Below are positions 2,154 through 34,980 of a stretch of 37,374 nt of DNA, in pieces. The DNA lies in IMG/VR virus record IMGVR_UViG_3300042261_000582, positions 1-37,374 of that record; one strand, given 5' to 3'. Position numbers and translations under genes: made by a program. The first letter of the stretch is position 1. Each line of letters starts with the position of its first letter. A model generated the notes under the pieces. The model was given only the letters and a program-made list of their open reading frames with translations. It was not told the DNA's origin and did no database searches. This stretch comes from a virus.

Positions 2154-3875
2154 TTAATTATATATTAATTTTTTATAGACATATTTCAAACTACCGGAAT
2201 CGTATATTCTATAAATTTTACGTTCAAGCATAATTTCATGCTCTGATTTGTTTTTATCAAAGCCTTGTTTAACTAATATGTCTTTTCTATAATTAAAACG
2301 ATATTCACGAATACCATCAACAACATAATAATAATTAGGTATTGTTTTACCCATATATTCGAATCCTAATACTTTATATAAATTACCTTGACTCCATGAA
2401 CGGTCAGCATAACTTATAACTTCTTTTGGTTTATAATTTTTAATAAAATAATTAAATAATTTATTCGCACTACCTATAACGGTTGTGTTTAATTTGTTAC
2501 AGAATCTAAGCATTTCATATACATTATCTTCGCTTTTAATACCCATCGCTTTTCTTTGTTTTCCGAATGTCATTAATGATACTAATTCGTTGTTGTAATA
2601 TAAACCCAATTTTATTTGGCTACCGACAAATCCTTGTAGATGGTTATTTTCGAGAAATCTTTTAATTTCTTTATTATCACTGATTTCCTTTACAATACAT
2701 TTTCTTGCGTATAATTTAATATCATTTTTACCAAGTAAATTGAGTATTCTGGATTTAACTATTTCTTGCTTAAATTTCCAATCATCTTCATAGATATGTA
2801 TTAACTGAATACCTTGTGCTTCACACATTTGTGTTTTATTATAATGATAATTTGATGCTTTGCTTGTTTCGTCATGATAATATAAACCATTAAATTCGAA
2901 AGCTAATTTTAAATCCGGTAAATAAATGTCTAATTCTAACGGTGATATTATTTTTTTAGAATTTATAATAACTTCTTTATTGTAATTATTTTTGATAAAT
3001 TCTGTTAATAATATTTCTTGACCTGATGAATGATGTCCAATAGGATTACATACAGTACATAATTTAGTGTTGTATTTTAATCTATTTAAAATTAAACTAT
3101 TTGAAATTTCATATATATGTTTTTCTTCACACTCAAATGTTAAAATATCCAAATCAATATTAACACTTATTATACCTAATTTTTTATATTTTAATAATTT
3201 ATTTTTAATCATAGTTTTTTTATAGTTTTGAATTCTTTTTTGAATAAATTCAGAAACCATTGATGGGTGTGAAACTTCATATTTTTCTAAAAATGTTTTT
3301 ACTAATTTATCATGATTATTTAAATTGCCATATTTTTCTATTTTAATTTTTTTTGTTTTTATTTTTTGTTCTTCAGTATTCAATAAACATTCAACACCGT
3401 ATTTTTTTAAAAGACTTATTTTTTTATTATTTTTAACACTTTCATCGCTATTAGCACTTTCAACACCGTATTTTATAATGTTGTTTTTTTTAATCGTTTC
3501 TTTAATAACATCATTTTGAAAAACATTTTCAACACCATATTTATTTATATTGGTTTTTTTTATTTTTTCAACATTTACATAATTTTCATCGCCATATAAT
3601 TCTAATTTAGTTTTTTTATTTTTAAAAATAGCACACTTATTAGAACAAGCATATAAATTATATTTATTTATATTTTTTTTATATACATTATATGGTATTT
3701 CTTTTTCCGTATTGCATATATCACATGCCACTTTTATTTTATAATTTGATGATTTAGTCAAATCAGAAACATTTACATCAATTTCATCCAGTATATTTAC
3801 ATTATAACCTTTTTCTCTATAATATTTTAATGTAGTGGAATTTATTTTTATTTTTATTTTATCAACTAGTATCAT
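2154..3875 (-). CDS. Free-standing homing endonuclease, EDxHD (Vsr-like) family
   Basis: The protein has 573 residues. The N-terminal region (about 1-90) holds a Cys4 zinc-ribbon-like unit (CDIC then CSNKC). It is followed by repeated K-Y-G-V-E units (about 95-200), typical of DNA-recognition repeats in phage homing endonucleases. The nuclease core around residues 312-350 has E314-x-D316, E327-F-N-G and H333, matching the EDxHD fold of I-Bth0305I-type enzymes. The C-terminal third resembles a domain found in Hef-like proteins and ends in a GNAT-like arrangement. The predicted role is cleavage of a related allele to spread itself. It lies leftward, 8 nt downstream of the resolvase gene, so is probably co-transcribed. 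From about residue 300 onward it is nearly identical to the protein at 26565, while the N-terminal halves differ. Confidence 0.85.
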   Translation of the reverse strand: MILVDKIKIKINSTTLKYYREKGYNVNILDEIDVNVSDLTKSSNYKIKVACDICNTEKEIPYNVYKKNINKYNLYACSNKCAIFKNKKTKLELYGDENYVNVEKIKKTNINKYGVENVFQNDVIKETIKKNNIIKYGVESANSDESVKNNKKISLLKKYGVECLLNTEEQKIKTKKIKIEKYGNLNNHDKLVKTFLEKYEVSHPSMVSEFIQKRIQNYKKTMIKNKLLKYKKLGIISVNIDLDILTFECEEKHIYEISNSLILNRLKYNTKLCTVCNPIGHHSSGQEILLTEFIKNNYNKEVIINSKKIISPLELDIYLPDLKLAFEFNGLYYHDETSKASNYHYNKTQMCEAQGIQLIHIYEDDWKFKQEIVKSRILNLLGKNDIKLYARKCIVKEISDNKEIKRFLENNHLQGFVGSQIKLGLYYNNELVSLMTFGKQRKAMGIKSEDNVYEMLRFCNKLNTTVIGSANKLFNYFIKNYKPKEVISYADRSWSQGNLYKVLGFEYMGKTIPNYYYVVDGIREYRFNYRKDILVKQGFDKNKSEHEIMLERKIYRIYDSGSLKYVYKKLIYN

Positions 3876-3883
3876 CTTTTTAT

Positions 3884-4594
3884 TTAATTTTTCAATAACA
3901 TCAATATAGATAAACTATCTAGTACGTCATCAAAAGGTTTCGGTAATTCTTTCATTTTCAATAAAATATCTTTATTTTCCATTAAAAATGGTGTTAATTT
4001 GGTATCTATGTTTAAATTAATAATAGCTTTCATAACATCAAATTTATCAAAATTACCACCAGATACATTATCTATACTTTGATTAATAGTTTTTGTGATT
4101 TTTTTAACACCTTTTTTATTGACTTTTTCTATTATTGTTTCACCATAAACTAATTTACATAGCATAGACTTAATATTTTTAGGACTCCAAATAATAATAT
4201 TTTCTAAGTTATGAATAACTAATAATTTTTTACGAATTAAAGTACTAAGAGTAACTATATCTATAATACTATTACTTTGCTGATTAAAACCAAAATTATA
4301 GCCTTCTATTGCAATAATTGTTTTTTGATCAGTATCGATATTTTCAATGATTTTATTAACAATTAATGTAGAAACATTATCAAATTCACGAAGTTTCATT
4401 AATTCTTTTTCTGAATATGTATCTATGTTTTTATAATTATAGCTAATAAAATCATAATTTATATAATTTAATGTCTTTTTTATCCAGATATAATCTTTCT
4501 TTTTCGTTGAAAAATTAAACAATTTGATTTCATCATTTTTTAATATAGAAACACCTGTACTATCTATTGATATGTCAATTCCAATTAAATTCAT
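3884..4594 (-). CDS. RuvC-like Holliday junction resolvase
   Basis: This 236-residue protein has an RNase H-like fold signature. It starts with M-N-L-I-G-I-D7-I-S (first catalytic Asp), has a central I-A-I-E97-G-Y strand, and a C-terminal P-F-D-D-V-L-D-S-L helix carrying Asp222, 223 and 226. That is the D..E..D/D order of RuvC-type resolvases. The expected role is metal-dependent cleavage of branched DNA before packaging, the job done by gp49 (endonuclease VII) in T4. It is longer than E. coli RuvC (about 173 residues) because of an insertion around residues 115-190. The homing endonuclease gene follows 8 nt downstream on the same strand. A divergent TATATATAA motif separates it from the kinase gene. 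Confidence 0.75.
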   Translation of the reverse strand: MNLIGIDISIDSTGVSILKNDEIKLFNFSTKKKDYIWIKKTLNYINYDFISYNYKNIDTYSEKELMKLREFDNVSTLIVNKIIENIDTDQKTIIAIEGYNFGFNQQSNSIIDIVTLSTLIRKKLLVIHNLENIIIWSPKNIKSMLCKLVYGETIIEKVNKKGVKKITKTINQSIDNVSGGNFDKFDVMKAIINLNIDTKLTPFLMENKDILLKMKELPKPFDDVLDSLSILMLLKN

Positions 4595-4611
4595 ATTTTT
4601 TCATTTTATTT

Positions 4612-4626
4612 TTAATTATATATAAA
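4612..4626. promoter_or_regulatory. Shared divergent TATATATAA promoter motif
   Basis: AATTATATATAAAC lies between the leftward resolvase gene (start 4594) and the rightward kinase gene (start 4646), about 20 nt from each ATG. The core is nearly palindromic, so both strands present a TATATAA element. It fits the T4-like late consensus, but there is no experimental support. A four-codon frame (ATG at 4639, TAA at 4651-4653) overlaps the kinase start in another phase. Confidence 0.4.
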
Positions 4627-4645
4627 CAAAACAGAGGTATGAAAT

Positions 4646-6613
4646 ATGTGTAATAAACATGTGAACTATGAAACTTTTTTTAATACGATAGATGATTTTC
4701 TATTTGTATTAGATATTGATGGCAATATAATTCAAATAAACGATACAGTTAAAAAAAGATTAGGATATACCCAAGATGAATTAATCGGAAAAAGTATTCT
4801 CATGATTCATCCAAAAGAAAGATACGATGAAGCAAATGAAATATTAAAGGGTATGTTAAATGGTACAATAGATTTTTGTCCTATCCCAATTATAACGAAA
4901 GATGGCATCCAAATACCTGTTGAGACACGTGTATCAATAGGTACGTGGAATGAAAAAACAGCACTATTCGGTGTAACTAAAGATATAACAAAAATAGTAT
5001 TATCGGAGGAAAAATTTTCTAAAGTTTTTTATTTAAATCCGTCTGCTTGTGGATTGAGTGATATTAACACTGGAAAATACATTGAAGTAAATGACGCATT
5101 TTACAAATTATTAGAATTCGAAAAGAATGAAGTAATAGGCAAAACTGCAATAGAATTAGGAATATTAACTAAAGAAACAATAAATGATGTATTAAGTGAC
5201 ATAAAAGATGGTGTGGTTTTTAATAAAAATGCTAATTTGAACACTAAAAATGGAAAAACTAAACACGCAATCTTATCTGCTGAAAATATCAATATTCAAA
5301 ATAAAAAATATCGTTTTACAGTTGTTACGGATATTACGGAGCGTAAAGAAGCAGAAAAATTACAATTATTATCTAACAATATATTAAGTAAATTAAACAG
5401 TAACTTAATTTTAAAAGAAATACTTTATGACGTATCAACCCTTATTAAAAATGAAATGAATTATTCATCTGTTGGTTTTAGATTTAAATCAGATAATGAT
5501 TATCCATATTATGTACAAAATGGTTTTGAAGATAATTTTATTTTAACTGAAAATTCAATAATCAACAATGAATGCGCAACATCTGATTTAGAATGCTATT
5601 GTGGTTTAGTAATATCTGAAAAAATAAATTCTTTTTTTGGTAGTTTTTGGACTAATAATTTAGAAGGAATAACACTCGATAATATTATAAATCCACGTAA
5701 AACGTGTATAAATAATGGTTATAAATCAATAGCACTTATTCCAATTAGAATTAATGATCAAATAGAGGGGCTTTTACAATTAAATGCAAAAAATAAAAAC
5801 ACATTTAATGATATTATTATAAAGTTTTTTGAGGGTATTTGTTTAAATATAGGAACGACAATAATGCGAAAAAAAGCAGAAGAAGATTTAATAAAAGCTA
5901 AAGAACGTGCAGAACAATCTGAAAAATTAAAAATAGATTTTTTAACAAATATGAGTCATGATTTAAGAACACCGATTAATAGTATTATTGGTTTTTCTGA
6001 ATTATTAAAAAATAATAATATCGATTTAATTGAAAAAAATCAATTTTTAGATATTATAATTGAAAATGGCGATATATTAACTAATTTAATAAATGATATT
6101 ATAGATATAACCAAAATAGACGCAGGAAGGTTAAATATACAAAAAACAGAATTAAATATTAATAAATTAATACACGACTTAAATTCACAATATATTAAAT
6201 TAATAAAAAATGATAATGTAAAATTAATTAACGATGTTAAAGATTTTGATGTTTTTATAATATCAGATAAATACAGGTTAAAACAAATATTAATGAATTT
6301 ATTAAGTAATGCCGTAAAGTTTACTAAAAAAGGGTATATCAAATTTGGTTATGATATTATAGACGATAAAAATTTAAAAATATACGTAAAAGATACAGGT
6401 ATAGGTATATCTGGAAATAATTTAAATATTATTTTTAATCGTTATACACAATTTTGTAACAGTGAAGCAAAAAAAGGTTCGGGTTTAGGGTTATCAATAT
6501 CTAAATCGTTAGTGAGTTTATTAGAATATGGCGATCTAATGGTAGAATCTAAATTAAATAAAGGTACAACTTTTTATTTTATTGTACCATATAATAAAAT
6601 TAAAAAACAATAA
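4646..6613 (+). CDS. PAS-PAS-GAF sensor histidine kinase
   Basis: The 655-residue protein is an apparently intact cytoplasmic histidine kinase. PAS 1 is at about 8-115 (VLDIDGNIIQINDTV) and PAS 2 at about 125-235, ending DITERKEAEK. A GAF-like region follows at about 245-412, with a linker coiled coil (RAEQSEKLK). The HisKA H-box is MSHDLRTP with His438. The HATPase N-box is MNLLSNAVKF with Asn551 and Asn555. The G1 box is DTGIGIS (Asp583), followed by the F-like box IFNRY and the G2 box GSGLGLS. All motifs needed for ATP binding and autophosphorylation are visible. There is no transmembrane segment and no receiver domain, and no response regulator gene is seen in the window. The partner must be a host regulator or lie elsewhere in the genome. 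The gene at 6620 follows after 6 nt. Base composition matches its neighbours, so recent acquisition is not obvious. Confidence 0.95.
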   Translation: MCNKHVNYETFFNTIDDFLFVLDIDGNIIQINDTVKKRLGYTQDELIGKSILMIHPKERYDEANEILKGMLNGTIDFCPIPIITKDGIQIPVETRVSIGTWNEKTALFGVTKDITKIVLSEEKFSKVFYLNPSACGLSDINTGKYIEVNDAFYKLLEFEKNEVIGKTAIELGILTKETINDVLSDIKDGVVFNKNANLNTKNGKTKHAILSAENINIQNKKYRFTVVTDITERKEAEKLQLLSNNILSKLNSNLILKEILYDVSTLIKNEMNYSSVGFRFKSDNDYPYYVQNGFEDNFILTENSIINNECATSDLECYCGLVISEKINSFFGSFWTNNLEGITLDNIINPRKTCINNGYKSIALIPIRINDQIEGLLQLNAKNKNTFNDIIIKFFEGICLNIGTTIMRKKAEEDLIKAKERAEQSEKLKIDFLTNMSHDLRTPINSIIGFSELLKNNNIDLIEKNQFLDIIIENGDILTNLINDIIDITKIDAGRLNIQKTELNINKLIHDLNSQYIKLIKNDNVKLINDVKDFDVFIISDKYRLKQILMNLLSNAVKFTKKGYIKFGYDIIDDKNLKIYVKDTGIGISGNNLNIIFNRYTQFCNSEAKKGSGLGLSISKSLVSLLEYGDLMVESKLNKGTTFYFIVPYNKIKKQ

Positions 6614-6619
6614 CAAAAA

Positions 6620-6916
6620 ATGGACGAATTAGTTAATTTTAAAAAAATACAAATAAACAATTATTTTTCAAGTCAATATGACTTATCAGAAAGCAATTTA
6701 AATATTTATCAAATAAAAAAAGATTTACACATGTTAATTGGTGAAGAACCAGGTGTACAGTTAAATTATGAAACTGAAAATCTTATAATGGAAGATGGTA
6801 CAGAAAGTAAAAAAATTCAAAAATTGAATTCGATTAGTATATATTTTACTTATGATATAAATATTGGATCAACAGAAACAATTCCACGTTTTGAAAAAGT
6901 AACATATTTAATCTAA
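6620..6916 (+). CDS. Small unknown protein following the kinase
   Basis: This 98-residue acidic protein starts 6 nt after the kinase stop codon, so the two are probably co-transcribed and perhaps translationally coupled. Secondary structure looks mixed alpha/beta, with a C-terminal beta-rich part (SISIYFTYDINIG). No cysteine clusters, membrane segments or known motifs are seen. It carries no phosphoacceptor pattern of a receiver domain, so it does not look like the missing response regulator. The function is unknown. Confidence 0.6.
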   Translation: MDELVNFKKIQINNYFSSQYDLSESNLNIYQIKKDLHMLIGEEPGVQLNYETENLIMEDGTESKKIQKLNSISIYFTYDINIGSTETIPRFEKVTYLI

Positions 6917-8814: not shown

Positions 8815-9333
8815 TTATTTTTTTGGTTGGATAATAGCCCACATACGATTACCTTCTAATTTTGGCATATTTTCAACTTTACCAAAAGCTTGAAGTTCAT
8901 TGATAAATTTTAACAATAGAAGTTGACCAATATCTTTAAAATTTATCTCTCTTCCTGCAAAAAATATAAAGACCTTAACTTTGTCACCGTCTTTTAAAAA
9001 TTCGATAGCATGATTCAATTTAAATTTAAAGTCGTGTTCACCCGTATTATATGTCATTCGGATTTCCTTTATTTTAGTCTTTTTATTATTTTGAAGATTT
9101 TTTTTCTCGATTTGCCCTTTTTCATATAGGTATTTAGAATATTCCATAATCTTACAAATGCCAACTCCATCCTTAGTTACACTTAATAAGATTAAATCCT
9201 TACCCATATCATTAGCATATTTAATAGCCAAATCTTTAGCTATTTCATTGGTTGGGTTTATATTACCCACGATTCTAACAATCGGTGTTTTAATTTCTTT
9301 ATTGATTAAAACATCATCAACGTTTTTCTTCAT
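8815..9333 (-). CDS. infC: Translation initiation factor IF-3
   Basis: The 172-residue protein is a full-length IF3. The N-domain is at about 8-75, with the VRIVG strand and VGICKIMEYSKYLYE, matching the bacterial P-x-C-K-I-M-D-Y-G-K-F-x-Y-E box. A Lys-rich linker helix is at about 75-90. The C-domain has KEIRMTYNTGEHDF, a KLNHAIEFLKDGDKVKV helix-strand and GRE, ending MPKLEGNRMWAIIQPKK. IF3 binds the 30S subunit, prevents premature 50S joining and proofreads initiator tRNA. Its presence in a phage suggests control of host translation initiation. It has a host-type promoter immediately upstream, unlike most neighbours, which suggests early expression. It uses ATG, whereas many bacterial infC genes start with AUU. 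Confidence 0.95.
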   Translation of the reverse strand: MKKNVDDVLINKEIKTPIVRIVGNINPTNEIAKDLAIKYANDMGKDLILLSVTKDGVGICKIMEYSKYLYEKGQIEKKNLQNNKKTKIKEIRMTYNTGEHDFKFKLNHAIEFLKDGDKVKVFIFFAGREINFKDIGQLLLLKFINELQAFGKVENMPKLEGNRMWAIIQPKK

Positions 9334-9617: not shown

Positions 9618-10721
9618 TTAAATAAATTCTGTTTTATTTACACTAATACGATACTTATTGATATTGAAATAGTTATCAAAAGCTAATATGATATCATCAA
9701 ATGTGATAATATCGATATAATTTTCAAGTAACCATTCATATGGTAATATATATCTATCTTCATTATCTTGTAAATTTATATTACTTTTTAATATTGTTAT
9801 CTTAATATAATTTTTAATAGTTTCAAATTTTTCTTGTGTTAAATATGATTTATCTTTAAAAACATCTTTTATAACATCTATTGTTTTATTTACATTGCTA
9901 TCTGTAGTTTCTGTTGAAATTGTGACAAATCCAATTTTATCTATTCGTTCTATTCGACAATTTATATAATATGCTAAACTGTTTTTTTCTCTTATTGCTT
10001 TATATAAAGGTGATTTTAAACCGCCTGATAAAAGTAATGTGATAAATATTATTTTATGAAAATCTGTTTCTATGATAGGTGATATAAAAACAATTGATGA
10101 TTTATTATTAGAATAAATAGGTGTTTCTAAAATATTATCATATGTATTAAAACTAATAATTTTTTTATCTACATTAGTTGAATGTGTAATATCGGACTCG
10201 TGCTTATATTTTTTAGAAAAATAAATTATTTTTGATGGTTTATCGTAATATTTTGAATAATAATTTAAACAATCTTCAATAGTTATGTTTTGTATATCTT
10301 CTTTCTTCCCAACAGAATTAAAGTTATTTAATATTTTCCTATGTAAATTAAGAATATGGTTTTTGCTATATTTGTTAAATAAATCAGAATATTCTTCTAA
10401 TATTACTTTTTTTTCAATTTCAAATACATCGGTATCTATTTTAAAATTATTCACTTTTAATAAAAAATCGTTTTTAAATTTATACACATATTCATCCAAA
10501 CCTTTAATATGAAAAATAATATTATTTGTTGTAGTAAAAGCATTCCACGAAATTCCATTTTTTTCTAATTTATCAATGAAATTATCATCTAAATTTTTAC
10601 AAATTAAATGTTCTATAAAATGACTTATACCATAAATTCCATTTGTTTCATTTATTACAACACCGTCATAAATTATATAAAAACTCGACAAATCGTTTGT
10701 GTTTGCTATATTATATATCAT
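9618..10721 (-). CDS. M16 (insulinase/pitrilysin-like) zinc peptidase
   Basis: The 367-residue protein carries the inverted zinc motif H34-F-I-E37-H38 within GISHFIEHL. The third ligand is Glu109 or 110 in VILEEY, at the spacing usual for M16 (about 70-75 residues). The region ISWNAFTTTNNIIFHIKG matches the strand after the motif, and KSPLYKAIREKNSLAYYI in the C-terminal domain matches the conserved R-x-Y region of the second M16 domain. It therefore looks like a complete two-domain, single-ring-half M16 enzyme, slightly short compared with processing peptidases of about 420 residues. The substrate is unknown; degradation of small host or phage peptides or processing of a virion protein are possibilities. 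No signal peptide is seen, so it is probably cytoplasmic. Confidence 0.85.
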   Translation of the reverse strand: MIYNIANTNDLSSFYIIYDGVVINETNGIYGISHFIEHLICKNLDDNFIDKLEKNGISWNAFTTTNNIIFHIKGLDEYVYKFKNDFLLKVNNFKIDTDVFEIEKKVILEEYSDLFNKYSKNHILNLHRKILNNFNSVGKKEDIQNITIEDCLNYYSKYYDKPSKIIYFSKKYKHESDITHSTNVDKKIISFNTYDNILETPIYSNNKSSIVFISPIIETDFHKIIFITLLLSGGLKSPLYKAIREKNSLAYYINCRIERIDKIGFVTISTETTDSNVNKTIDVIKDVFKDKSYLTQEKFETIKNYIKITILKSNINLQDNEDRYILPYEWLLENYIDIITFDDIILAFDNYFNINKYRISVNKTEFI

Positions 10722-13430: not shown

Positions 13431-15170
13431 ATGAGTTTTAAAGTTCAAATAGTAAATATAGAAAATAATGTTAATAATATACTTTTAACGGATGATTTAA
13501 CAATAGAAATATTAAAAGTTAAATACAATTGGATATTAAATGCTTCTATAAAAAATGTTGTTTTAGGATTAGATGATTATGGTTTAGTATGGTATTCTGG
13601 CGAATGGATTTGCGGCGAATGGGAAGATGGTACATGGTATTCTGGAATTTGGCATAACGGTATATGGAAAAATGGCAAATGGTATTCTTATTTGTTAGAT
13701 AAAGCTATGATATTATCAAGAAGATTTGTTATTGTAGAAGAAGATAAAATATATTCACAATTTTTAAATGGTAAATGGTATAATGGCGATTGGTATAATG
13801 GAATATTCGGTAATGATATTGATGTATCAAGTTATTCTGGTATAACTATACCAACAGAATGTCCTTATTGGATTAATGGTAATTTTTATAATGGTTTATT
13901 TAAAAATTCAGTTTGGTTAAATGGTAATTTTTATAATGAGTTTTTTAAAAATTCTTATTGGTTAAGTGGAAAATTTTATAATGGTAAATTTGACAATTTT
14001 GAATGGCACAATGGAAATTTTTATGGAGGTGATTTTGTTAAAGGTGTATGGAAAAATGGTTCATTTAATCAAATAAATATAAATATATTGTCAAGATTTG
14101 GTGTTCAAAGTGGAGTTACATCAGATGGTGTTTTAACAACATGGGAAAATGGTGTATTTGAAAATGGTATGTTTATGTCTGGTTTAAATGTGGATGTCAG
14201 TGGTAATACAATTGCAAGTATTTGCCATAACACAACTCATTGGTTAAATGGTAAATTTAACAATGGTTTTTGGTATGGTGGTCACTTTAAAAAAGGAACA
14301 TTTAATTATGGTAAATGGTATGGTGGTGTATTTAATACTGATTTTGAATACCATCACACGCAAGAAACCACTTGGGTTAATGGCTATTGGTATGATGGAC
14401 TTTGGATGAATGGTACATTTAAATCTGGCATGTTTATGTCTGGTATGTGGCTAAATGGCATTTTTGAAAATGGTTTTTTAGTGAGTGAATATACTGATGT
14501 GATTACACCAGATTTAAAAGAAAATATAATACCACAACAATTACCAACACCACCAACACCACCAACATATTATTCACCTACAGTGACAACAAATTCTATT
14601 GGTACGCCAGCATATAATTCGTGTGATGTGATATGTGAAGTTACAAATACTGGTGGATTATCAACAACACGTGGTATTTGTTATTCTACAAATAACACAC
14701 CTACATTAAACAATACAGTTATTTATGACAATAATAATGGGTTGGGTGTATATACTAATACTATGATTGGGTTGTCACAAAATACAACTTATTATGTCCG
14801 TGCGTTTGCTATAAATTCACTTGGTGTTAATTATGGTACTATTAAAAATTTAATTACTGCTGCATTGCCAGTACCGACAGTTGAAACATATCAAGCAATT
14901 ACACTTAATAATAATGCGACAGTAAGTGGTTATTTATCAGATAATGGTGGCAGCGCAATAACTGCGATAGGTTTTATATATTCTACGACCAATCCACCAA
15001 ATAACGGAATAGTTCATAATATAGGCACAGCTAATGCACCTTGGAATTTTGGCTGCACATTAACTTTATTATATGGTACTACATATTATTATGTAGCATT
15101 TGCCGATAATAGTAGCGGGAGAGGCACTGGTAGTGTTAAAACATTTACAACAACATCATATGCGCCATAA
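13431..15170 (+). CDS. Tail fibre/adhesin with W-x-N-G repeats and FN3-like domains
   Basis: The protein has 579 residues. After an N-terminal attachment region (about 1-50), residues about 53-350 consist of many short imperfect repeats of the form W-x-N-G-x-[FW]-Y-N-G-x-[FW], MORN-like and likely to build a long beta-solenoid. A Pro/Thr linker (about 365-378) leads to two fibronectin III-like domains (about 380-475 and 480-575) with the usual YYVRAFAINSLG and TYYYVAFADN strands. This architecture suggests a receptor-binding fibre or a whisker. It lies 18 nt after the large structural protein, with a second ATG 6 nt upstream in another phase. The start chosen gives MSFKVQIVN. Assignment as a fibre is inference from architecture. 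Confidence 0.7.
   Translation: MSFKVQIVNIENNVNNILLTDDLTIEILKVKYNWILNASIKNVVLGLDDYGLVWYSGEWICGEWEDGTWYSGIWHNGIWKNGKWYSYLLDKAMILSRRFVIVEEDKIYSQFLNGKWYNGDWYNGIFGNDIDVSSYSGITIPTECPYWINGNFYNGLFKNSVWLNGNFYNEFFKNSYWLSGKFYNGKFDNFEWHNGNFYGGDFVKGVWKNGSFNQININILSRFGVQSGVTSDGVLTTWENGVFENGMFMSGLNVDVSGNTIASICHNTTHWLNGKFNNGFWYGGHFKKGTFNYGKWYGGVFNTDFEYHHTQETTWVNGYWYDGLWMNGTFKSGMFMSGMWLNGIFENGFLVSEYTDVITPDLKENIIPQQLPTPPTPPTYYSPTVTTNSIGTPAYNSCDVICEVTNTGGLSTTRGICYSTNNTPTLNNTVIYDNNNGLGVYTNTMIGLSQNTTYYVRAFAINSLGVNYGTIKNLITAALPVPTVETYQAITLNNNATVSGYLSDNGGSAITAIGFIYSTTNPPNNGIVHNIGTANAPWNFGCTLTLLYGTTYYYVAFADNSSGRGTGSVKTFTTTSYAP
13587..14480 (+). repeat. Degenerate W-x-N-G coding repeats
   Basis: The DNA repeats variants of a tgg-tta-aat-ggt-aat-ttt-tat-aat-ggt core, encoding W-L-N-G-N-F-Y-N-G units, roughly every 30-60 nt. 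Closest copies are at about 13869-13900 and 13913-13940. Such tracts can recombine to change adhesin length. Confidence 0.7.
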
Positions 15171-22200: not shown

Positions 22201-24573
22201 ATGAAAAACGTAATGATTATCGATAATTGCTTAGGCGGTTTAGAAAAAATAAATGAAATGGTAAGTAAAAAAGGTAATATTTTATATATTATGCAGGGTA
22301 TTTTTACAGAATTTATGATAAAAAATCGTAATGAAAGAGTTTACACACCAGAAAAATTTCTTCCCCATTTAAGTGAATTGTTAGAAAGAAAGTCTTTATT
22401 AAAAGTTGTTTATGGTGAATTTGATCATCCAGAAGTATTTGATACAAGTTTAACACGTATTTCACATACTATACACAATGCTTGGTATGTAAAGGAAACC
22501 AACAGAGTTGATGGTGAAATAAGATTAACTAATACTTTTTATGGAAAAGAAGCAAAAGCACTTGTTGATGACGATATGCCACTTTTTGTTTCTAGTAGAG
22601 CAGCAGGTGTAACAGAATCAAATGGCGAAGTAACAGTTAAAAAATTATTCACTTATGATTGTGTTGCTGACCCTGGATTCTCATCTGCAAGAATGGAATT
22701 GAAAAACATGAATGAATCACTTGGTTACAATGAAAATTCAAACTTTAGGATATTCGAAATGTCCGATGAGTCAAAAATTAATGAATTATTCAATATGGAA
22801 AAAAACGAAAATGGAACTCAACACAAATTAGAGGAGTTCAAGTCCTATTTAGATAGTGAGTTACAAAAAACAAGAAAATCCATTGACGAAACACTTAAGG
22901 ATAAGAATTTCGATCCGGATAAACTTACTCGTCTTTATGAAGAATTCGAAACATTGTCAGAAGGACAGAAACAAATGATTGGATATCTTGATCATATTTC
23001 TGATACTATTAATGTTTTAGTTCAAGAAAACAACGATTTAAAAGAAAAAGTTCAAAAAAATAAAGAAAAAACAAAACTTATTATTGAACACAGCGATCAT
23101 TTAGCTGAATCTGTCGAAAAAACAGTTGGTTATGTTGATTATTTAGCAAAAACTACCGATAAGGTTATCGATTATCAAAAATACATCGCAGAAAAATTAG
23201 ATAATGGTATTAGCTTTATTGAATATGTTGCTGAACAAACAAGTAACACAATTAAATATAGTGAATATATAGCTGAAAACTTTGATAAAATTGCAGATTA
23301 TGCTGAATATATAGCTGAACATCTTGATAAGAACATTATGTATGCTGAATATGTAGCTGAAACTGTTGATAATTTAGTTGATTATACAGAATATATTGGT
23401 GAAAGTGCCGATAAAATTGTCGATTATGCACAATATATCGCTGAACACGTAGATAATTCAATTAGATACGGTGAATATGTAGCAGAACAAACTGATAATG
23501 GAATTAAATATGCTGAATATGTAGGTGAAAATCTTACAGATGCTATTGCATATCAAAAATATAACGCAGAAGTTCTTGACAGAACTATTGATTTTACTAA
23601 AAAAATTGTAGAAAAAATTAACAACGGTGGTAATATTCTTATTACAGAAGAACTTGGTGATATGACTGCTGATGAACCGTCAAAATATTATGATGATGAC
23701 GATGATTCAGAAATAGATAACACAGGTGAAACAGAATCAGAAGATGTAGAAGAAACACCAGAAGAAACACCAGAAGAAACACCAGAAGAAACACCAGAAG
23801 AAACACCAAAAAAAACAAAACGTGTAAATATAGAAGAAGAACCGATTCAAGATGAAGAAGAAGACGAATTAGGTATCACACCTGGTATGATCGTAAAAGT
23901 TGGCGATGATGAAAATGCACGTACTGGTGAAGTTCTTGCAACAAACGATGATACTAAAATAGTAGTAATAAAAATGGGCGATACTGGCGAAGAAGTAGAA
24001 ATAGATGAATGTAAAGTCTCTATTTTAGGTTCTACTAAAATTTATGAAAATAAGAATCAAATAACAAAAGATATAAAAAGACTTATCTTAGAAGCAAAAA
24101 AACGTGATGCGTCGAAGACAGAAGATCCACACTTTCTTTTATTTTTAACAGAGAAGAAAAAAGCCGCATATTATGGTTTAACTCCTGAAGATAAAGAAAA
24201 GGTAAACTTTATAATGAACGAAAATAAAGGAACTTATTCTAACGAAAGTGACGTTCTTAAATTAATGCAAACAGCATTATTTAAACAAACCAGAACATTA
24301 AATGAAATGTTGGTTGAAAATATTCCATTAGATTTAAAACCAATATGGTCTAGTTTAAATCCAAAAGTTCAAGAAAGTATATTAGAAAGCGCAGAATTTT
24401 ATAAAAACTTGACTGAGGATAAAGTTGAATCTTTTTGGGTAACCAGAGATTTACTTAAGTATTCGAAAACCCCAAGTAAAAAAGTATTGAATGAAAACGT
24501 AAACCAATATGATAATTACAAATTAAGTGAAGATCAATTAGATCTTTATAAAAGCATACTTAACAGATATTAA
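22201..24573 (+). CDS. Prohead protease fused to scaffold (gp21-gp22-like)
   Basis: The protein has 790 residues. Residues 1-165 form a herpes/T4-type (S78/U35-like) prohead serine protease: YGEFDHPE with His76, LFVSSRAAG with Ser131 or 132, and the KLFTYDCVADPGF strand. A coiled coil follows (about 200-295), then twelve 14-residue repeats (297-464), then an acidic T-P-E-E stretch (about 515-535). The last 240 residues are a globular, helical scaffold-like end. In T4 the protease and scaffold are separate genes 21 and 22, in the order 20-67-68-21-22-23, so this is a fusion of both functions placed between portal and capsid. Possible self-cleavage sites of I/L-x-E type are KINE19-Met and VLNE-Asn near the C-terminus. 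Confidence 0.88.
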   Translation: MKNVMIIDNCLGGLEKINEMVSKKGNILYIMQGIFTEFMIKNRNERVYTPEKFLPHLSELLERKSLLKVVYGEFDHPEVFDTSLTRISHTIHNAWYVKETNRVDGEIRLTNTFYGKEAKALVDDDMPLFVSSRAAGVTESNGEVTVKKLFTYDCVADPGFSSARMELKNMNESLGYNENSNFRIFEMSDESKINELFNMEKNENGTQHKLEEFKSYLDSELQKTRKSIDETLKDKNFDPDKLTRLYEEFETLSEGQKQMIGYLDHISDTINVLVQENNDLKEKVQKNKEKTKLIIEHSDHLAESVEKTVGYVDYLAKTTDKVIDYQKYIAEKLDNGISFIEYVAEQTSNTIKYSEYIAENFDKIADYAEYIAEHLDKNIMYAEYVAETVDNLVDYTEYIGESADKIVDYAQYIAEHVDNSIRYGEYVAEQTDNGIKYAEYVGENLTDAIAYQKYNAEVLDRTIDFTKKIVEKINNGGNILITEELGDMTADEPSKYYDDDDDSEIDNTGETESEDVEETPEETPEETPEETPEETPKKTKRVNIEEEPIQDEEEDELGITPGMIVKVGDDENARTGEVLATNDDTKIVVIKMGDTGEEVEIDECKVSILGSTKIYENKNQITKDIKRLILEAKKRDASKTEDPHFLLFLTEKKKAAYYGLTPEDKEKVNFIMNENKGTYSNESDVLKLMQTALFKQTRTLNEMLVENIPLDLKPIWSSLNPKVQESILESAEFYKNLTEDKVESFWVTRDLLKYSKTPSKKVLNENVNQYDNYKLSEDQLDLYKSILNRY
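23089..23592 (+). repeat. Twelve tandem 42-bp units coding 14-residue repeats
   Basis: Residues 297-464 divide without gaps into twelve 14-mers with consensus Y-x-x-Y-[IV]-A-E-x-x-D-x-x-I-x; the first unit begins HSDHLAESV and the last YQKYNAEVL. Fourteen residues equal two heptads, so a continuous coiled coil with regularly placed tyrosines is likely. DNA copies are diverged, so this is an old, maintained repeat. Confidence 0.9.
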
Positions 24574-26564: not shown

Positions 26565-28373
26565 ATGATTAAATCCGAAAAATTAGAAATTATTATTTAT
26601 AATAAGCAATTAAAACATTATAACCAATATTTTTCTGATAGATTATTAAAACAAGGTGATAAGATTGTAATCGATTTGTATATGTTAACAGAGCATTCAA
26701 AACAAAAAATAGATGTTATGTGCGATATTTGTGGCAATGAAAAAAATATGAATTATAAAGATTATAAAAGAATAACAAACGATTTAAAAGAAAAATATTA
26801 TTGCAAAAAATGCAAATGGATTAAAACAAAAGAAACAAACATGAATAAATATGGTTGTGAAAATGTATTTCAAAACAATGAAATTAAAGAAAAAATAAAA
26901 ATCACAAATATTGAAATTTTTGGTGTTGATCATCCATTAAAAAATGAAAGTGTTAAACAAAAAAGAAAAGAAACAAACACAAATAAATTTGGGTTTGAAC
27001 ATCACTTGCAAAATAAAGAAATATTAAGTAAATTGCAACACACAAATATATTAAAATATGGCAATAAATGTTCATTAATAAATGATGAGGTTAAATTAAA
27101 AACAACACAAACAAATTTAGAAAAATATGGTGTTGATATACCACTAAAAAATAAAACAATTATCGAAAAATTAATTCAAACAAACAATATAAGGTATGGT
27201 GATAATTCCCCTTTACAAAATGTTGATATACACAACAAATCAGTAGACACTTTATTTGAAAATTATGGTGTTTCTAATCCATTAAAATCAGAATATATTA
27301 AGGATAAAGTTAAAAAAACTAAAATAAATAATTTATTTAAGAAATATGAAAATTTAGATATAATTAATATAAATTATGATACACACGAATATGAATTTAA
27401 ATGCGATTGTAATAAAGAACATAATTTTTTAATATCATCTAATTTGTTATACAATCGATTAAAAATTAAAACCATTTTATGTACTATATGTAATCAAATA
27501 AATAGTTATAATAATTCAGGGATGCAAATTCAATTATATGAATATATCAAAAATAATTATGATAAAGAAATATTAATAAATAATAGAAATATTATCAATC
27601 CACATGAACTGGATATTTATTTACCGGAACTAAAATTGGCTTTTGAATTTAATGGATTATTCTGGCATAATGAATTAAATAAAGATAATAATTATCATTA
27701 CAATAAAACAGAAATCTGTGAAGCACAAGGCATTCATCTTATACATATTTATGAAGATGATTGGATTTATAAGCAAGAAATAGTTAAATCCAGAATACTC
27801 AATTTACTTGGCAAAAATGTTATTAAATTATATGCACGTAAATGTATTATAAAAGAATGTAACAATAGTGAAATTCGTGATTTTCTTAATACAAATCATC
27901 TACAAGGATTTGTTGGAAGCCAATTTAAATTGGGTTTATATTACAACAACGAATTAGTCTCATTGATGATATTTGGAAAGCAAAGAAAACCATTAGGTTC
28001 TAAAAACAAAGATGATATTTTCGAAATGCTTAGATTTTGCAATAAAATCAACACAACTGTTGTTGGCGGTGCAAATAAACTGTTTAATTATTTTGTTAAA
28101 AATTATAAACCAAAAGAAGTTATATCGTATGCCGACCGTTCATGGAGTCAAGGCAATTTATATAAAGTATTAGGATTCGAATATATGGATAAAACGAAAC
28201 CCAATTATTATTATATTGTTGATGGTATTCGTGAATATCGTTTTAATTATAGGAAAGATATTTTAATAAAACAGGGATTTGAACAATACAAATCTGAACA
28301 TGAAATTATGCTTGAACGTAAAATTTATAGAATATATGATTCCGGTAGTTTGAAATATATTTATAAAATATAA
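26565..28373 (+). CDS. Free-standing homing endonuclease, EDxHD family, second copy
   Basis: This 602-residue protein has the same plan as the one at 2154. It has an N-terminal zinc-ribbon (CDIC, CKKC), about seven K-Y-G / F-G-V-D recognition repeats (about 90-235), then the nuclease core H-E-L-D-I-Y-L-P ... L-A-F-E-F-N-G-L-F-W-H, and the long C-terminal domain ending GSLKYIYKI. From the nuclease core onward it is nearly identical to the protein at 2154. The recognition repeats are much more diverged, fitting a shift in target site. It sits just after the capsid gene terminator, a typical site for an endonuclease that targets a conserved capsid gene of related phages. Confidence 0.88.
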   Translation: MIKSEKLEIIIYNKQLKHYNQYFSDRLLKQGDKIVIDLYMLTEHSKQKIDVMCDICGNEKNMNYKDYKRITNDLKEKYYCKKCKWIKTKETNMNKYGCENVFQNNEIKEKIKITNIEIFGVDHPLKNESVKQKRKETNTNKFGFEHHLQNKEILSKLQHTNILKYGNKCSLINDEVKLKTTQTNLEKYGVDIPLKNKTIIEKLIQTNNIRYGDNSPLQNVDIHNKSVDTLFENYGVSNPLKSEYIKDKVKKTKINNLFKKYENLDIININYDTHEYEFKCDCNKEHNFLISSNLLYNRLKIKTILCTICNQINSYNNSGMQIQLYEYIKNNYDKEILINNRNIINPHELDIYLPELKLAFEFNGLFWHNELNKDNNYHYNKTEICEAQGIHLIHIYEDDWIYKQEIVKSRILNLLGKNVIKLYARKCIIKECNNSEIRDFLNTNHLQGFVGSQFKLGLYYNNELVSLMIFGKQRKPLGSKNKDDIFEMLRFCNKINTTVVGGANKLFNYFVKNYKPKEVISYADRSWSQGNLYKVLGFEYMDKTKPNYYYIVDGIREYRFNYRKDILIKQGFEQYKSEHEIMLERKIYRIYDSGSLKYIYKI

Positions 28374-29414: not shown

Positions 29415-30878
29415 TTGATAGTAGATTATGAATATAAATTTGGTAAATTAATTGTATCGCATGTTGATGAAACAAAAAAAATTAAATTAAGATATTATAA
29501 TTGGCTTAATCCGACAAATTATGTAGTTACATCAGATGATGATAAACAAAAAGATGGTAGATTTGTTACATGGAATGGTAATTCTGTAAAAAAGATATCA
29601 ACAAAAAATCCAAATAGATATTCTGTTTATGATTTTTTAGAAGAATTGCCCCAAGAAGAACAAGATATTTTATTTAAATATAATGAACCTGAGATTTTCT
29701 TTATTGACATTGAAAATGAAATTATAGATAAAAAACCAAAAGCACATTTAGCTGAAAGTGCAATATTAAGTATCTCAATAGTAAATAAAAATATAGTAGA
29801 GGTTTTTGGTTTAAACGAAATGTCTGAAAAAACACGAAAATCTATTGAAGATGATATAAATAATTATTTTATTAAATTCGGTGTAATATATACATTCAGA
29901 TTTCATCATTTCAAGAGCGAATTTGATATGTTATATAAATTCTTTTCATATGTACAATTTATGCCAGTTTTAACTGGTTGGAATTTCACCGAATATGACT
30001 GGACTTTTTTAGTTAATAGGGCAAGAAAAATAGGGGTTGATCCAAAAGTAGCCTCCGTAACTAAATTGTTGAGAGAACCTTGGAATATGGAAAAAAAGAC
30101 ATATGCTGAATTACCTGCACATCGTATGATAATTGATTATATGGAATTATTTAAAAAATGGGACACGTCTATTAGGGTAAAAGAATCAACAAGTTTAGAT
30201 TTTATATCAGATAGTGTATTGGGTATAAAAAAAGTAAATTATGAAGGTAGTTTAAAAACATTACACCATACAGATTACAAGAAATTTATATTTTATAATG
30301 CTGTTGACTCATTACTTGTTCAAAAAATACATGAAAAAACAAAATTAATTGATATATTATATGGTATATCGACATTATCACGAGTAAAAATACAAGATAG
30401 TTTTTCTACATTACCAGTAACTGAAGGTATTCTTAGAAGAAAATTAAAAAACGAAAAAAATGTTATACTTTGCAAATTAGGCGATTCCGATGGTACATCT
30501 GAACATGTAGCTGGTGGTTTTGTAAAAGAACCCATAAAAGGAATGTCTAAATACACCGTATGCTACGATTTCGCATCACTTTATCCGACTTCAATGCGTA
30601 TGTTTAATATATCAGTTGATAGTTATAAAGGTGTAATATCAAAAGATCGAAAATATGCTATATTCAATTCTAAAAAAATAGAATTAGAACCTAATGATAT
30701 TATTTTGTTAAATGGCACAGTGTTTAGGAATGAAGTTGGTGTAGTAAATCAAGTTATGACTAATATATATGGTGATAGAAAAAAATATAAAGATTTTATG
30801 TTAAAAGATCATATGGTATTAGATGAATTAAAAAGCGAAGAAGAAGCATTAATAAAAGAATTAATGAATGAAATATGA
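29415..30878 (+). CDS. DNA polymerase family B, N-terminal half (split gp43-like)
   Basis: The 487-residue protein carries the 3'-5' exonuclease motifs and only the first polymerase motif. Exo I is FIDIE (Asp98, Glu100), Exo II NFTEYD (Asp195) and Exo III YNAVDS (Asp298). Motif A is YDFASLYPTS (Asp385). It ends at residue 487 in the fingers (GDRKKYKDFMLK and a Glu/Leu helix). Motif B (K-x3-N-S-x-Y-G) and motif C (D-T-D-S), present in full-length T4 gp43 (898), are absent. They are not found elsewhere in the window, so the C-terminal half must be encoded outside it, or the gene is broken. The start is TTG at 29415, since no in-frame ATG precedes the conserved part. The ATGA overlap with the next gene indicates coupling. 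Confidence 0.88.
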   Translation: MIVDYEYKFGKLIVSHVDETKKIKLRYYNWLNPTNYVVTSDDDKQKDGRFVTWNGNSVKKISTKNPNRYSVYDFLEELPQEEQDILFKYNEPEIFFIDIENEIIDKKPKAHLAESAILSISIVNKNIVEVFGLNEMSEKTRKSIEDDINNYFIKFGVIYTFRFHHFKSEFDMLYKFFSYVQFMPVLTGWNFTEYDWTFLVNRARKIGVDPKVASVTKLLREPWNMEKKTYAELPAHRMIIDYMELFKKWDTSIRVKESTSLDFISDSVLGIKKVNYEGSLKTLHHTDYKKFIFYNAVDSLLVQKIHEKTKLIDILYGISTLSRVKIQDSFSTLPVTEGILRRKLKNEKNVILCKLGDSDGTSEHVAGGFVKEPIKGMSKYTVCYDFASLYPTSMRMFNISVDSYKGVISKDRKYAIFNSKKIELEPNDIILLNGTVFRNEVGVVNQVMTNIYGDRKKYKDFMLKDHMVLDELKSEEEALIKELMNEI

Positions 30879-32107: not shown

Positions 32108-32875
32108 TCATTTTGCATAACAGTAGGTACAATTATGCTTGCATGATTTAAATGAACCAATATCACCACTTTGCATACAACCGCAAGCAAGACGTTGATT
32201 TTTATCTTTTGTGTCAGTAATCCATCTTTGTTTACCACATATTCTTTTGATTAAATCTGGATCAATGCATTTATTATGTTCAATACCATCAAGATTTATT
32301 ACTTCCGCACATGTAGCTAAATCTAATTCCCATTCTTTATTAAATTCAATTAATTTTTCAGCAATTCTAATTTTAACATCATCTGGTATTTCTTTAAATG
32401 AATCCCCCAATTTTTTATATGGATCTATATAACTAAATACAAGTTTTTCAGTATATGGATGTATTATATCGCCTATTTTTTTAATTCTATCTAATATATC
32501 CACTTCTGAAATTTGATCGTTCACAATCACCGGATCGAATCTCCATATAATACGTTTTTTCCCAATCTTTTTAGATAACTCTATAAATGTTTCTATTCTT
32601 TCATTAAGTGCTGGTATATTTAATTCATATTCTGGATAATCATTTAATGTGAATTGAAAATAATATTTAAAAGGTATATCATTTAAATATTGCATTAAAG
32701 GTCTTGGATTTTTAGTCCAAAATACCGCTAATTTCACTTTATCAAAATACACAGTATAATCTGAATAAAAATTAGTTAAATTTATATACCCTTTCTGAAC
32801 ACATTTCATGAAATATTCCGATTTAAATGCCGGAAAATCTTCACGTCTACTCACTGAAATTACATATGGGTGCAT
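32108..32875 (-). CDS. DUF1848 family Fe-S protein
   Basis: The 255-residue protein follows the DUF1848 pattern throughout. The N-terminus is VISVSRREDFPAF, then VFWTKNPRPLMQYL, YYFQFTLNDYPE, RIIWRFDPVIV and CAEVINLDGIEHNKCIDPDL. The C-terminal cysteine cluster is RLACGCMQSGDIGSFK, SCKHNCTYCYAK. The closing C-x2-C-x2-C-like cysteines are thought to bind an Fe-S cluster, and the family is related to SPL-like radical SAM proteins by analogy. The function is unproven. It is a little shorter than usual (about 290). A possible 44-residue gene overlaps its first 29 nt. Confidence 0.85.
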   Translation of the reverse strand: MHPYVISVSRREDFPAFKSEYFMKCVQKGYINLTNFYSDYTVYFDKVKLAVFWTKNPRPLMQYLNDIPFKYYFQFTLNDYPEYELNIPALNERIETFIELSKKIGKKRIIWRFDPVIVNDQISEVDILDRIKKIGDIIHPYTEKLVFSYIDPYKKLGDSFKEIPDDVKIRIAEKLIEFNKEWELDLATCAEVINLDGIEHNKCIDPDLIKRICGKQRWITDTKDKNQRLACGCMQSGDIGSFKSCKHNCTYCYAK

Positions 32876-34632: not shown

Positions 34633-34980
34633 ATGAAAAACATACTAAATTACGATAATTATTTATTAGAAATGGCAAAAAAGGGATTCATGGATGTTTA
34701 TACTAAACGTTATAAACCAGAAGAAACAGGATATGGTAATGCAGATAAATGGAAACATGCGTTTGATGAACGTATGGATCGTGAAACCGCTAAACGTATA
34801 TTGGATGATAAAGACCCATATAAAATTCTTGGTGTATCTCATGATGCAGATAAATATGAAATAAAATCTGCATATCGTAAATTAGCAATGGAATTTCACC
34901 CAGATAGAAATCAAGATCGTGATACAACAATAATATTTCAAGAAATACAAGCAGCATACGAAATGTTACGTGATAATTGA
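34633..34980 (+). CDS. J-domain (DnaJ-like) protein with capsid-targeting-like start
   Basis: The 115-residue protein ends in a complete J domain (about 61-115: DPYKILGVSHDADKYEIKSA, then HPD at 89-91 and an AAYEMLRD helix). The HPD motif stimulates Hsp70 ATPase, so it could recruit host DnaK. It lacks the G/F and zinc regions of DnaJ. The N-terminus, MKNILNYDNYLLE then Met, matches the leader pattern of T4 internal proteins. If real, this small co-chaperone would be packaged and injected. A start at Met14 (MAKKGF) would remove the leader. A terminator follows. Confidence 0.85.
   Translation: MKNILNYDNYLLEMAKKGFMDVYTKRYKPEETGYGNADKWKHAFDERMDRETAKRILDDKDPYKILGVSHDADKYEIKSAYRKLAMEFHPDRNQDRDTTIIFQEIQAAYEMLRDN

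Follow-up and report, generated by a model that had tools for sequence, protein, structure and literature searches.

Phages eavesdrop via quorum-sensing receptors. Complete sensor histidine kinases are rare in phages, as stated in a preliminary description of the locus studied here, and the present count agrees: 37 of 50,697 phage records match such a kinase, and many of these look bacterial. One of them, MW462191, was considered as a further phage kinase and discarded, as its neighbours (an MFS transporter, aminopeptidase N and GlnE) look cellular. Among the precedents found, AgrC of phage phiCDHM1 (PMC3901668) comes closest to a phage kinase that lacks a regulator of its own. With respect to huge phages, genomes of more than 634 kb belong to the Mahaphage clade, and Bacteroidetes are their predicted hosts (Al-Shayeb et al. 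2020, PMC7162821); the terms 'kinase', 'two-component' and 'sensor' are absent from the main text of that paper. A comparative survey covering 224 jumbo phages brings up histidine kinases solely to set them against a divergent receiver linked to NAD systems (PMC7824862). No description of the present locus was found in the open-access journal literature on phage-encoded histidine kinases.

The window analysed here is the whole stretch of 37,374 nucleotides of the IMG/VR virus record IMGVR_UViG_3300042261_000582. It comes from a T4-type huge phage, of which it covers only a fragment, and this phage is a relative of the 735-kb Mahaphage LR756501. The major capsid protein is 67.5% identical over 99% to those of LR756501 and LR756503, and comparison with PHROG assigns the genes for portal, prohead protease and capsid to head families. 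Capsid similarity together with the gene order in common with LR756501 places the window in the 735-kb branch of the Mahaphages. If its genome falls into the size class of LR756501, the window represents about 5% of it. The kinase gene starts with ATG, carries a ribosome-binding site (AGAGG) 8 nt 5' of the start and encodes 655 amino acids. The following features were assigned to the gene, its surroundings and other parts of the window:

3884-4594, minus strand: RuvC-like resolvase, conserved divergent upstream neighbour (PHROG 159, 1.8e-4)
4607-4627, plus strand: AT-rich promoter-like element TTTTTAATTATATATAAAC, counterpart of TTTTTATATATA in the sister loci (putative function)
4646-6613, plus strand: soluble sensor histidine kinase, PAS-PAS-GAF-like-HisKA-HATPase_c, without receiver (open reading frame, Pfam, same-locus orthologues)
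4646-4993, plus strand: PAS domain 1, residues 1-116 (Pfam PAS_9, 6.6e-18)
4997-5341, plus strand: PAS domain 2, residues ~118-232 (second PAS_9/PAS stretch; secondary structure of a low-confidence model)
5348-5863, plus strand: GAF-like region, residues 235-406 (sub-threshold Pfam GAF; homology to the GAF domain of sister kinase L058)
5930-6127, plus strand: HisKA dimerisation/phospho-acceptor domain (Pfam; SHDLRTP invariant in eight orthologues)
5957-5959, plus strand: codon of H438, inside HisKA
6266-6592, plus strand: HATPase_c with N-box N551/N555 and F-box F597 (Pfam; invariant across orthologues)
6392-6412, plus strand: G1 box DTGIGIS in HATPase_c
6476-6496, plus strand: G2 box GSGLGLS in HATPase_c
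6620-6916, plus strand: core gene of huge phages (98 aa) that follows the kinase, syntenic (98-aa scan, locus comparison)
8815-9333: IF-3 gene
9618-10721: M16 peptidase gene
32108-32875: DUF1848 gene
34633-34980: DnaJ-domain gene

The Pfam matches of the window kinase to HisKA (1.6e-17, residues 429-494) and HATPase_c (2.8e-21, residues 541-649) score far above the cut-offs and are thus not due to chance. H438, N551/N555, D583-G585-G587, F597 and G611-G613-G615 do not vary among the eight phage orthologues; the phospho-acceptor histidine and the N, G1, F and G2 boxes of a HisKA-type sensor histidine kinase are all present. With the open reading frame, the Pfam domains and all catalytic boxes found, the intact phage kinase of the preliminary description was confirmed. 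The protein is predicted to be catalytically active and to autophosphorylate at H438, and it is probably cytoplasmic, as no strongly hydrophobic segment is evident in its sequence. The sensory part had been described as PAS-PAS-GAF, which stands for the PAS domains, since these exceed the Pfam cut-off. The GAF domain scores 12.7 bits in the window protein alone, below the cut-off of 22.4, and its assignment to residues 235-406 comes solely through the alignment of residues 107-649 to L058 (48% identity), whose GAF domain clears the cut-off with 26.0 bits. Within the compared set, a C-x-C-G-x-V-I motif in this region is present in the window kinase and L058 only. No relative was found in a search of the PDB. 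The full-length AlphaFold model from a seven-row alignment was too poor for use (mean pLDDT 49), with the GAF region unfolded and hence no structural confirmation of GAF.

In LR756501 the kinase is encoded at 36067-38280, and its core is 53% identical to that of the window kinase. The gene order of the locus is the same in both phages (384 gene, 1167 gene, divergent RuvC-like gene, kinase, 98-aa gene), and beyond the 98-aa gene both carry an exonuclease, IF-3 and M16 peptidase genes and then tail genes. While an IMG/VR scan with patterns from the window kinase alone, consisting of poorly conserved peptides, gave no matches, a scan with the aligned kinase core identified seven loci with six distinct kinases that are 52-67% identical. 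The flanking genes of all seven are the same as in the window, and the contigs recovered by scanning with the 98-aa gene were these seven again. Kinase orthologues are therefore present at one locus in the window, in LR756501 and in six further distinct viral loci. No kinase was found in the fetched stretches of ten contigs with a more distant 1167 gene, three of which (L175, L176 and L179) include the RuvC-like gene with several kb of sequence past it, and a HisKA search of LR745206, LR756502, LR756504, LR756500 and Lak-A2 gave no match. As the kinase recurs in LR756501 and the IMG/VR loci and was not found in the other huge-phage sequences compared, it is assigned to a single branch of huge phages, and a host-phage chimera is rejected. 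Phage genes flank the kinase on both sides in eight loci. The joining of host and phage DNA by misassembly, against which the preliminary description had cautioned, is contradicted by the recurrence of the locus and its flanking genes in independent assemblies. The window kinase is an inherited locus of a huge-phage lineage and not a lone acquired host gene. The 98-aa neighbour was dismissed as a dedicated kinase partner, as it is also encoded in the kinase-less phages LR745206, LR756502 and LR756504; its AlphaFold model (pLDDT 87) gave no confident match in the PDB.

Some further genes were observed in the window and its relatives. The genes at 2154-3875 (minus strand) and 26565-28373 (plus strand) are similar to each other and homing-endonuclease-like by eye; the first matches DUF7487 and adjoins the RuvC-like gene, where no counterpart was seen in LR756501, L056, L057 or L059. 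Beside kinase loci of the 735-kb type, genes at L001 8580-9530 and L061 9451-10401 are glycoside-hydrolase-16-like by reading of the sequence. Many NG-x-WYNG (MORN-like) repeats are present in the protein encoded at 13431-15170, and the LR756501 region contains extra nearby copies of the C-terminal part of this repeat protein. The prohead protease reading frame (22201-24573) includes a long stretch of about ten imperfect (Y)AEYIAE-type repeats. The Family B DNA polymerase reading frame (29415-30878, 487 aa) contains the exonuclease domain, breaks off within the polymerase domain, of which the first part is present, and is followed at 30875 by a 225-aa reading frame without Pfam match; the remainder of the polymerase was not seen in the following reading frames scanned. 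This polymerase gene is split or truncated.

In LR756501, L056, L057, L058, L060 and L061, the start codon of the kinase gene is preceded, at a distance of 20-47 nt, by the element TTTTTATATATA or a close variant of it, and near-variants are located upstream of the L059 and window kinases. The exact element occurs three times in 50 kb of LR756501 (0.22 expected) and with one mismatch 30 times in the window (10.8 expected); it is also found upstream of a few other genes. A promoter of its own is suggested for the kinase. Matches to a late-promoter pattern, ATATAADMAAAAMA, were near chance level.

The eight distinct phage kinases compared (REC, receiver) have the following domain architectures:

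LR756501 and L061: PAS domains-HK-REC
L056: REC-PAS-PAS-HK-REC
L057 (identical in L062): PAS-PAS-HK-REC
L058: several PAS-GAF-HK-REC, 1051 aa
L059: PAS-PAS-HK-REC, with different PAS types
L060: REC-several PAS-HK-REC, 981 aa
Window: PAS-PAS-GAF-like-HK, without REC

The kinase core can be aligned over its full length in all eight, and the inputs vary in number, type or order. In LR756501 and L061, which have the same architecture, dN amounts to 0.12 in the sensor part as compared to 0.02 in the core and REC. The phage kinases thus have a constant output and sensors that differ between most members. The sister kinases L056 (6882-9143) and L060 (6204-9149) carry an extra N-terminal receiver (REC-PAS-HK-REC). 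A C-terminal REC is present in all seven phage sisters and, among the matches listed, in 63 of the 76 nearest bacterial kinases, and by parsimony its lack in the window kinase points to a loss. No fused receiver was found in the window kinase; it terminates with ...FYFIVPYNKIKKQ, and the next gene starts at 6620, directly past the stop codon. We regard the window kinase, judging from these comparisons, as a former hybrid kinase whose C-terminal receiver was cleanly lost in the window's line.

The best 80 cellular matches, among those listed, all come from records labelled as Bacteroidota/Bacteroidetes groups or Chlorobiota. Bacteroidales kinases are the nearest cellular relatives among these matches, with cellular cores at most 52% identical to the window core over ~242 aa. 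In a quick maximum-likelihood tree of kinase cores, the eight cores from phages group in a single clade (SH-aLRT 99) as against 76 Bacteroidota/Chlorobiota cores, indicating a single origin of the phage kinases among the sampled sequences. The phylogenetic check against Bacteroidota kinases proposed earlier was thereby carried out and placed the phage clade among such kinases; Bacteroidota ancestry of the window kinase is probable. The core dN/dS is ~0.02 between LR756501 and L061 and ~0.15 between the window and L056, where dS is near saturation. In the same comparisons, the window kinase diverges at about the rate of neighbouring phage genes. The low core dN/dS and the neighbour-like divergence show that the window kinase stays under constraint, in keeping with purifying selection on the phage kinases, and accelerated decay found no support, as the relative rates match those of the neighbours.

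The interpretation given in the preliminary description was upheld in part. It had emphasized that neither a receiver nor a partner is present in the window. The absence itself is correct, no receiver being found in the 37-kb fragment, and its significance is not, since the window covers about 5% of such a genome and relatives encode receivers. When the search for receiver and HPt proteins was run on the relatives, each of the seven sisters proved to have a fused receiver, and two phage lineages a stand-alone one. HPt (PF01627) gave no match in LR756501 and five other huge phages, in a search that a divergent HPt could escape; a multistep phosphorelay was hence not detected, the window genome being incomplete. 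LR756501 contains two receiver matches, one inside the kinase and one in a stand-alone 123-aa protein 312 kb away, of which a 98% identical copy is present on a 108-kb contig (3300028283_000494) from the same metagenome as L061. On the L058 contig, a receiver of 114 aa is encoded separately, 4.3 kb upstream of the kinase. Both stand-alone receivers keep the acidic pair, the phospho-acceptor Asp and the Lys; they are not clearly orthologous to each other. Pattern scans for stand-alone receivers in other members of the clade returned only the near-identical copy. Stand-alone receivers are also encoded by LR756500 and LR756504, both without a HisKA kinase, and can thus serve other purposes. The receiver of LR756500 (L010 1483-1836) aligns with Asn at the expected phospho-acceptor Asp; that of LR756504 is located at L011 1483-1965. 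LR756501 has a single HisKA kinase in its 735 kb. It gives one more HATPase match, at 680 kb and within a 1103-aa frame, which we guess to be a topoisomerase. The phosphate path probably leads from the kinase to its own REC and/or a stand-alone receiver. In the window phage, whose own REC is gone, transfer in trans is the sole possible path.

We lean, with restrained confidence, towards a phage-owned cytoplasmic signalling system, in which an inherited kinase with swapped sensors passes phosphate to a receiver in trans. The kinase activity, the signal, the trans partner and the effect on infection we infer as follows. One ancestor would have acquired, next to the RuvC-like gene, a hybrid kinase of Bacteroidota (PAS...HisKA-HATPase-REC); its descendants would have retained the kinase-receiver output and exchanged sensor modules, and in the window phage the C-terminal receiver would have been deleted, with PAS-PAS-GAF-like as the sensor. 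When an intracellular cue detected by PAS/GAF changes, autophosphorylation of H438 would be altered, and the phosphoryl group would then move to a receiver in trans. This would most likely be a stand-alone phage protein encoded elsewhere, like those of LR756501 and L058's phage; a phage-encoded receiver is more likely than a host one. The phosphorylated receiver may alter phage or host behaviour through protein-protein contact. Only tentatively, and with somewhat more doubt than belief, do we propose that a self-contained two-component system with swapped inputs tunes the infection of each phage to a different cue of its Bacteroidota host.

It appears rather unlikely that the receiver-less kinase instead phosphorylates, or drains phosphate from, response regulators of the Bacteroidota host and thereby rewires host signalling. 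The specificity of kinases for their regulators is usually narrow, which counts against such an activity, as do the receivers kept by all seven sisters, the stand-alone receivers in two phage lineages and the at most 52% identity of the window core to cellular cores among the matches listed. The lack of a receiver within the window and, among the matches listed, the Bacteroidales kinases as nearest cellular relatives would fit a host-directed kinase, as would the predicted Bacteroidetes hosts of phages above 634 kb (PMC7162821) and phiCDHM1 AgrC, which lacks a response regulator and was proposed to use that of the host (PMC3901668). The kinase might also be without output since the loss of its receiver and be decaying, in line with the window being the only one of eight orthologues without receiver and with its tip, the longest in the phage clade (0.49 vs 0.12 for the sister). 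The intact reading frame, the retention of all catalytic residues, a core dN/dS of ~0.15 and a divergence in line with the neighbours make this quite improbable. Even less credible is an assembly artefact, i.e. a fusion of host with phage DNA or the dropping of a receiver domain during assembly: the receiver loss is seen in a single contig only, but the gene order around the kinase is the same in eight separately assembled loci, the G+C content of the kinase resembles that of neighbouring genes, and the deletion ends cleanly at a stop codon shortly 5' of the conserved next gene.

If the favoured reading of a phage-owned signalling system is true, the inherited PAS/GAF kinase locus constitutes a virus-owned stimulus-response system in a lineage of the largest phages known, and our results suggest that these phages monitor their host cell and pass signals to a receiver protein of phage or host. 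With this locus, one can test whether phages gauge the physiology of the host while infecting it, and from which cue, and the sensor swaps and single receiver loss that it offers as a natural series should be helpful in studying the evolution of kinase specificity. Phage kinases themselves are known; new here is a phage-inherited histidine kinase family with exchanged sensors and one member that is missing the receiver.

As compared to known systems, three viral families match the kinase core with 4e-54 to 3e-46 (phrog_20458, phrog_857 and phrog_10912), the first of which also covers the REC of the LR756501 kinase; they are mostly of 'unknown function' and may include prophage or contaminant kinases. 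AgrC of the Clostridioides difficile phage phiCDHM1 resembles the window kinase as a phage histidine kinase reported without its own response regulator, but belongs to an agr peptide quorum-sensing cassette of a 54-kb phage able to form lysogens, and PAS/GAF input was not reported for it (PMC3901668). The Bacteroidales hybrid kinases (L074-L153) share the core, with the identity of at most 52% over ~242 aa among the matches listed, but are cellular, fall outside the phage clade and mostly have one C-terminal REC. The LR756501 kinase has the orthologous locus, the flanking genes and a 53% identical core in common with the window kinase, and differs from it in having another PAS set, a C-terminal REC and a stand-alone receiver elsewhere in the genome.
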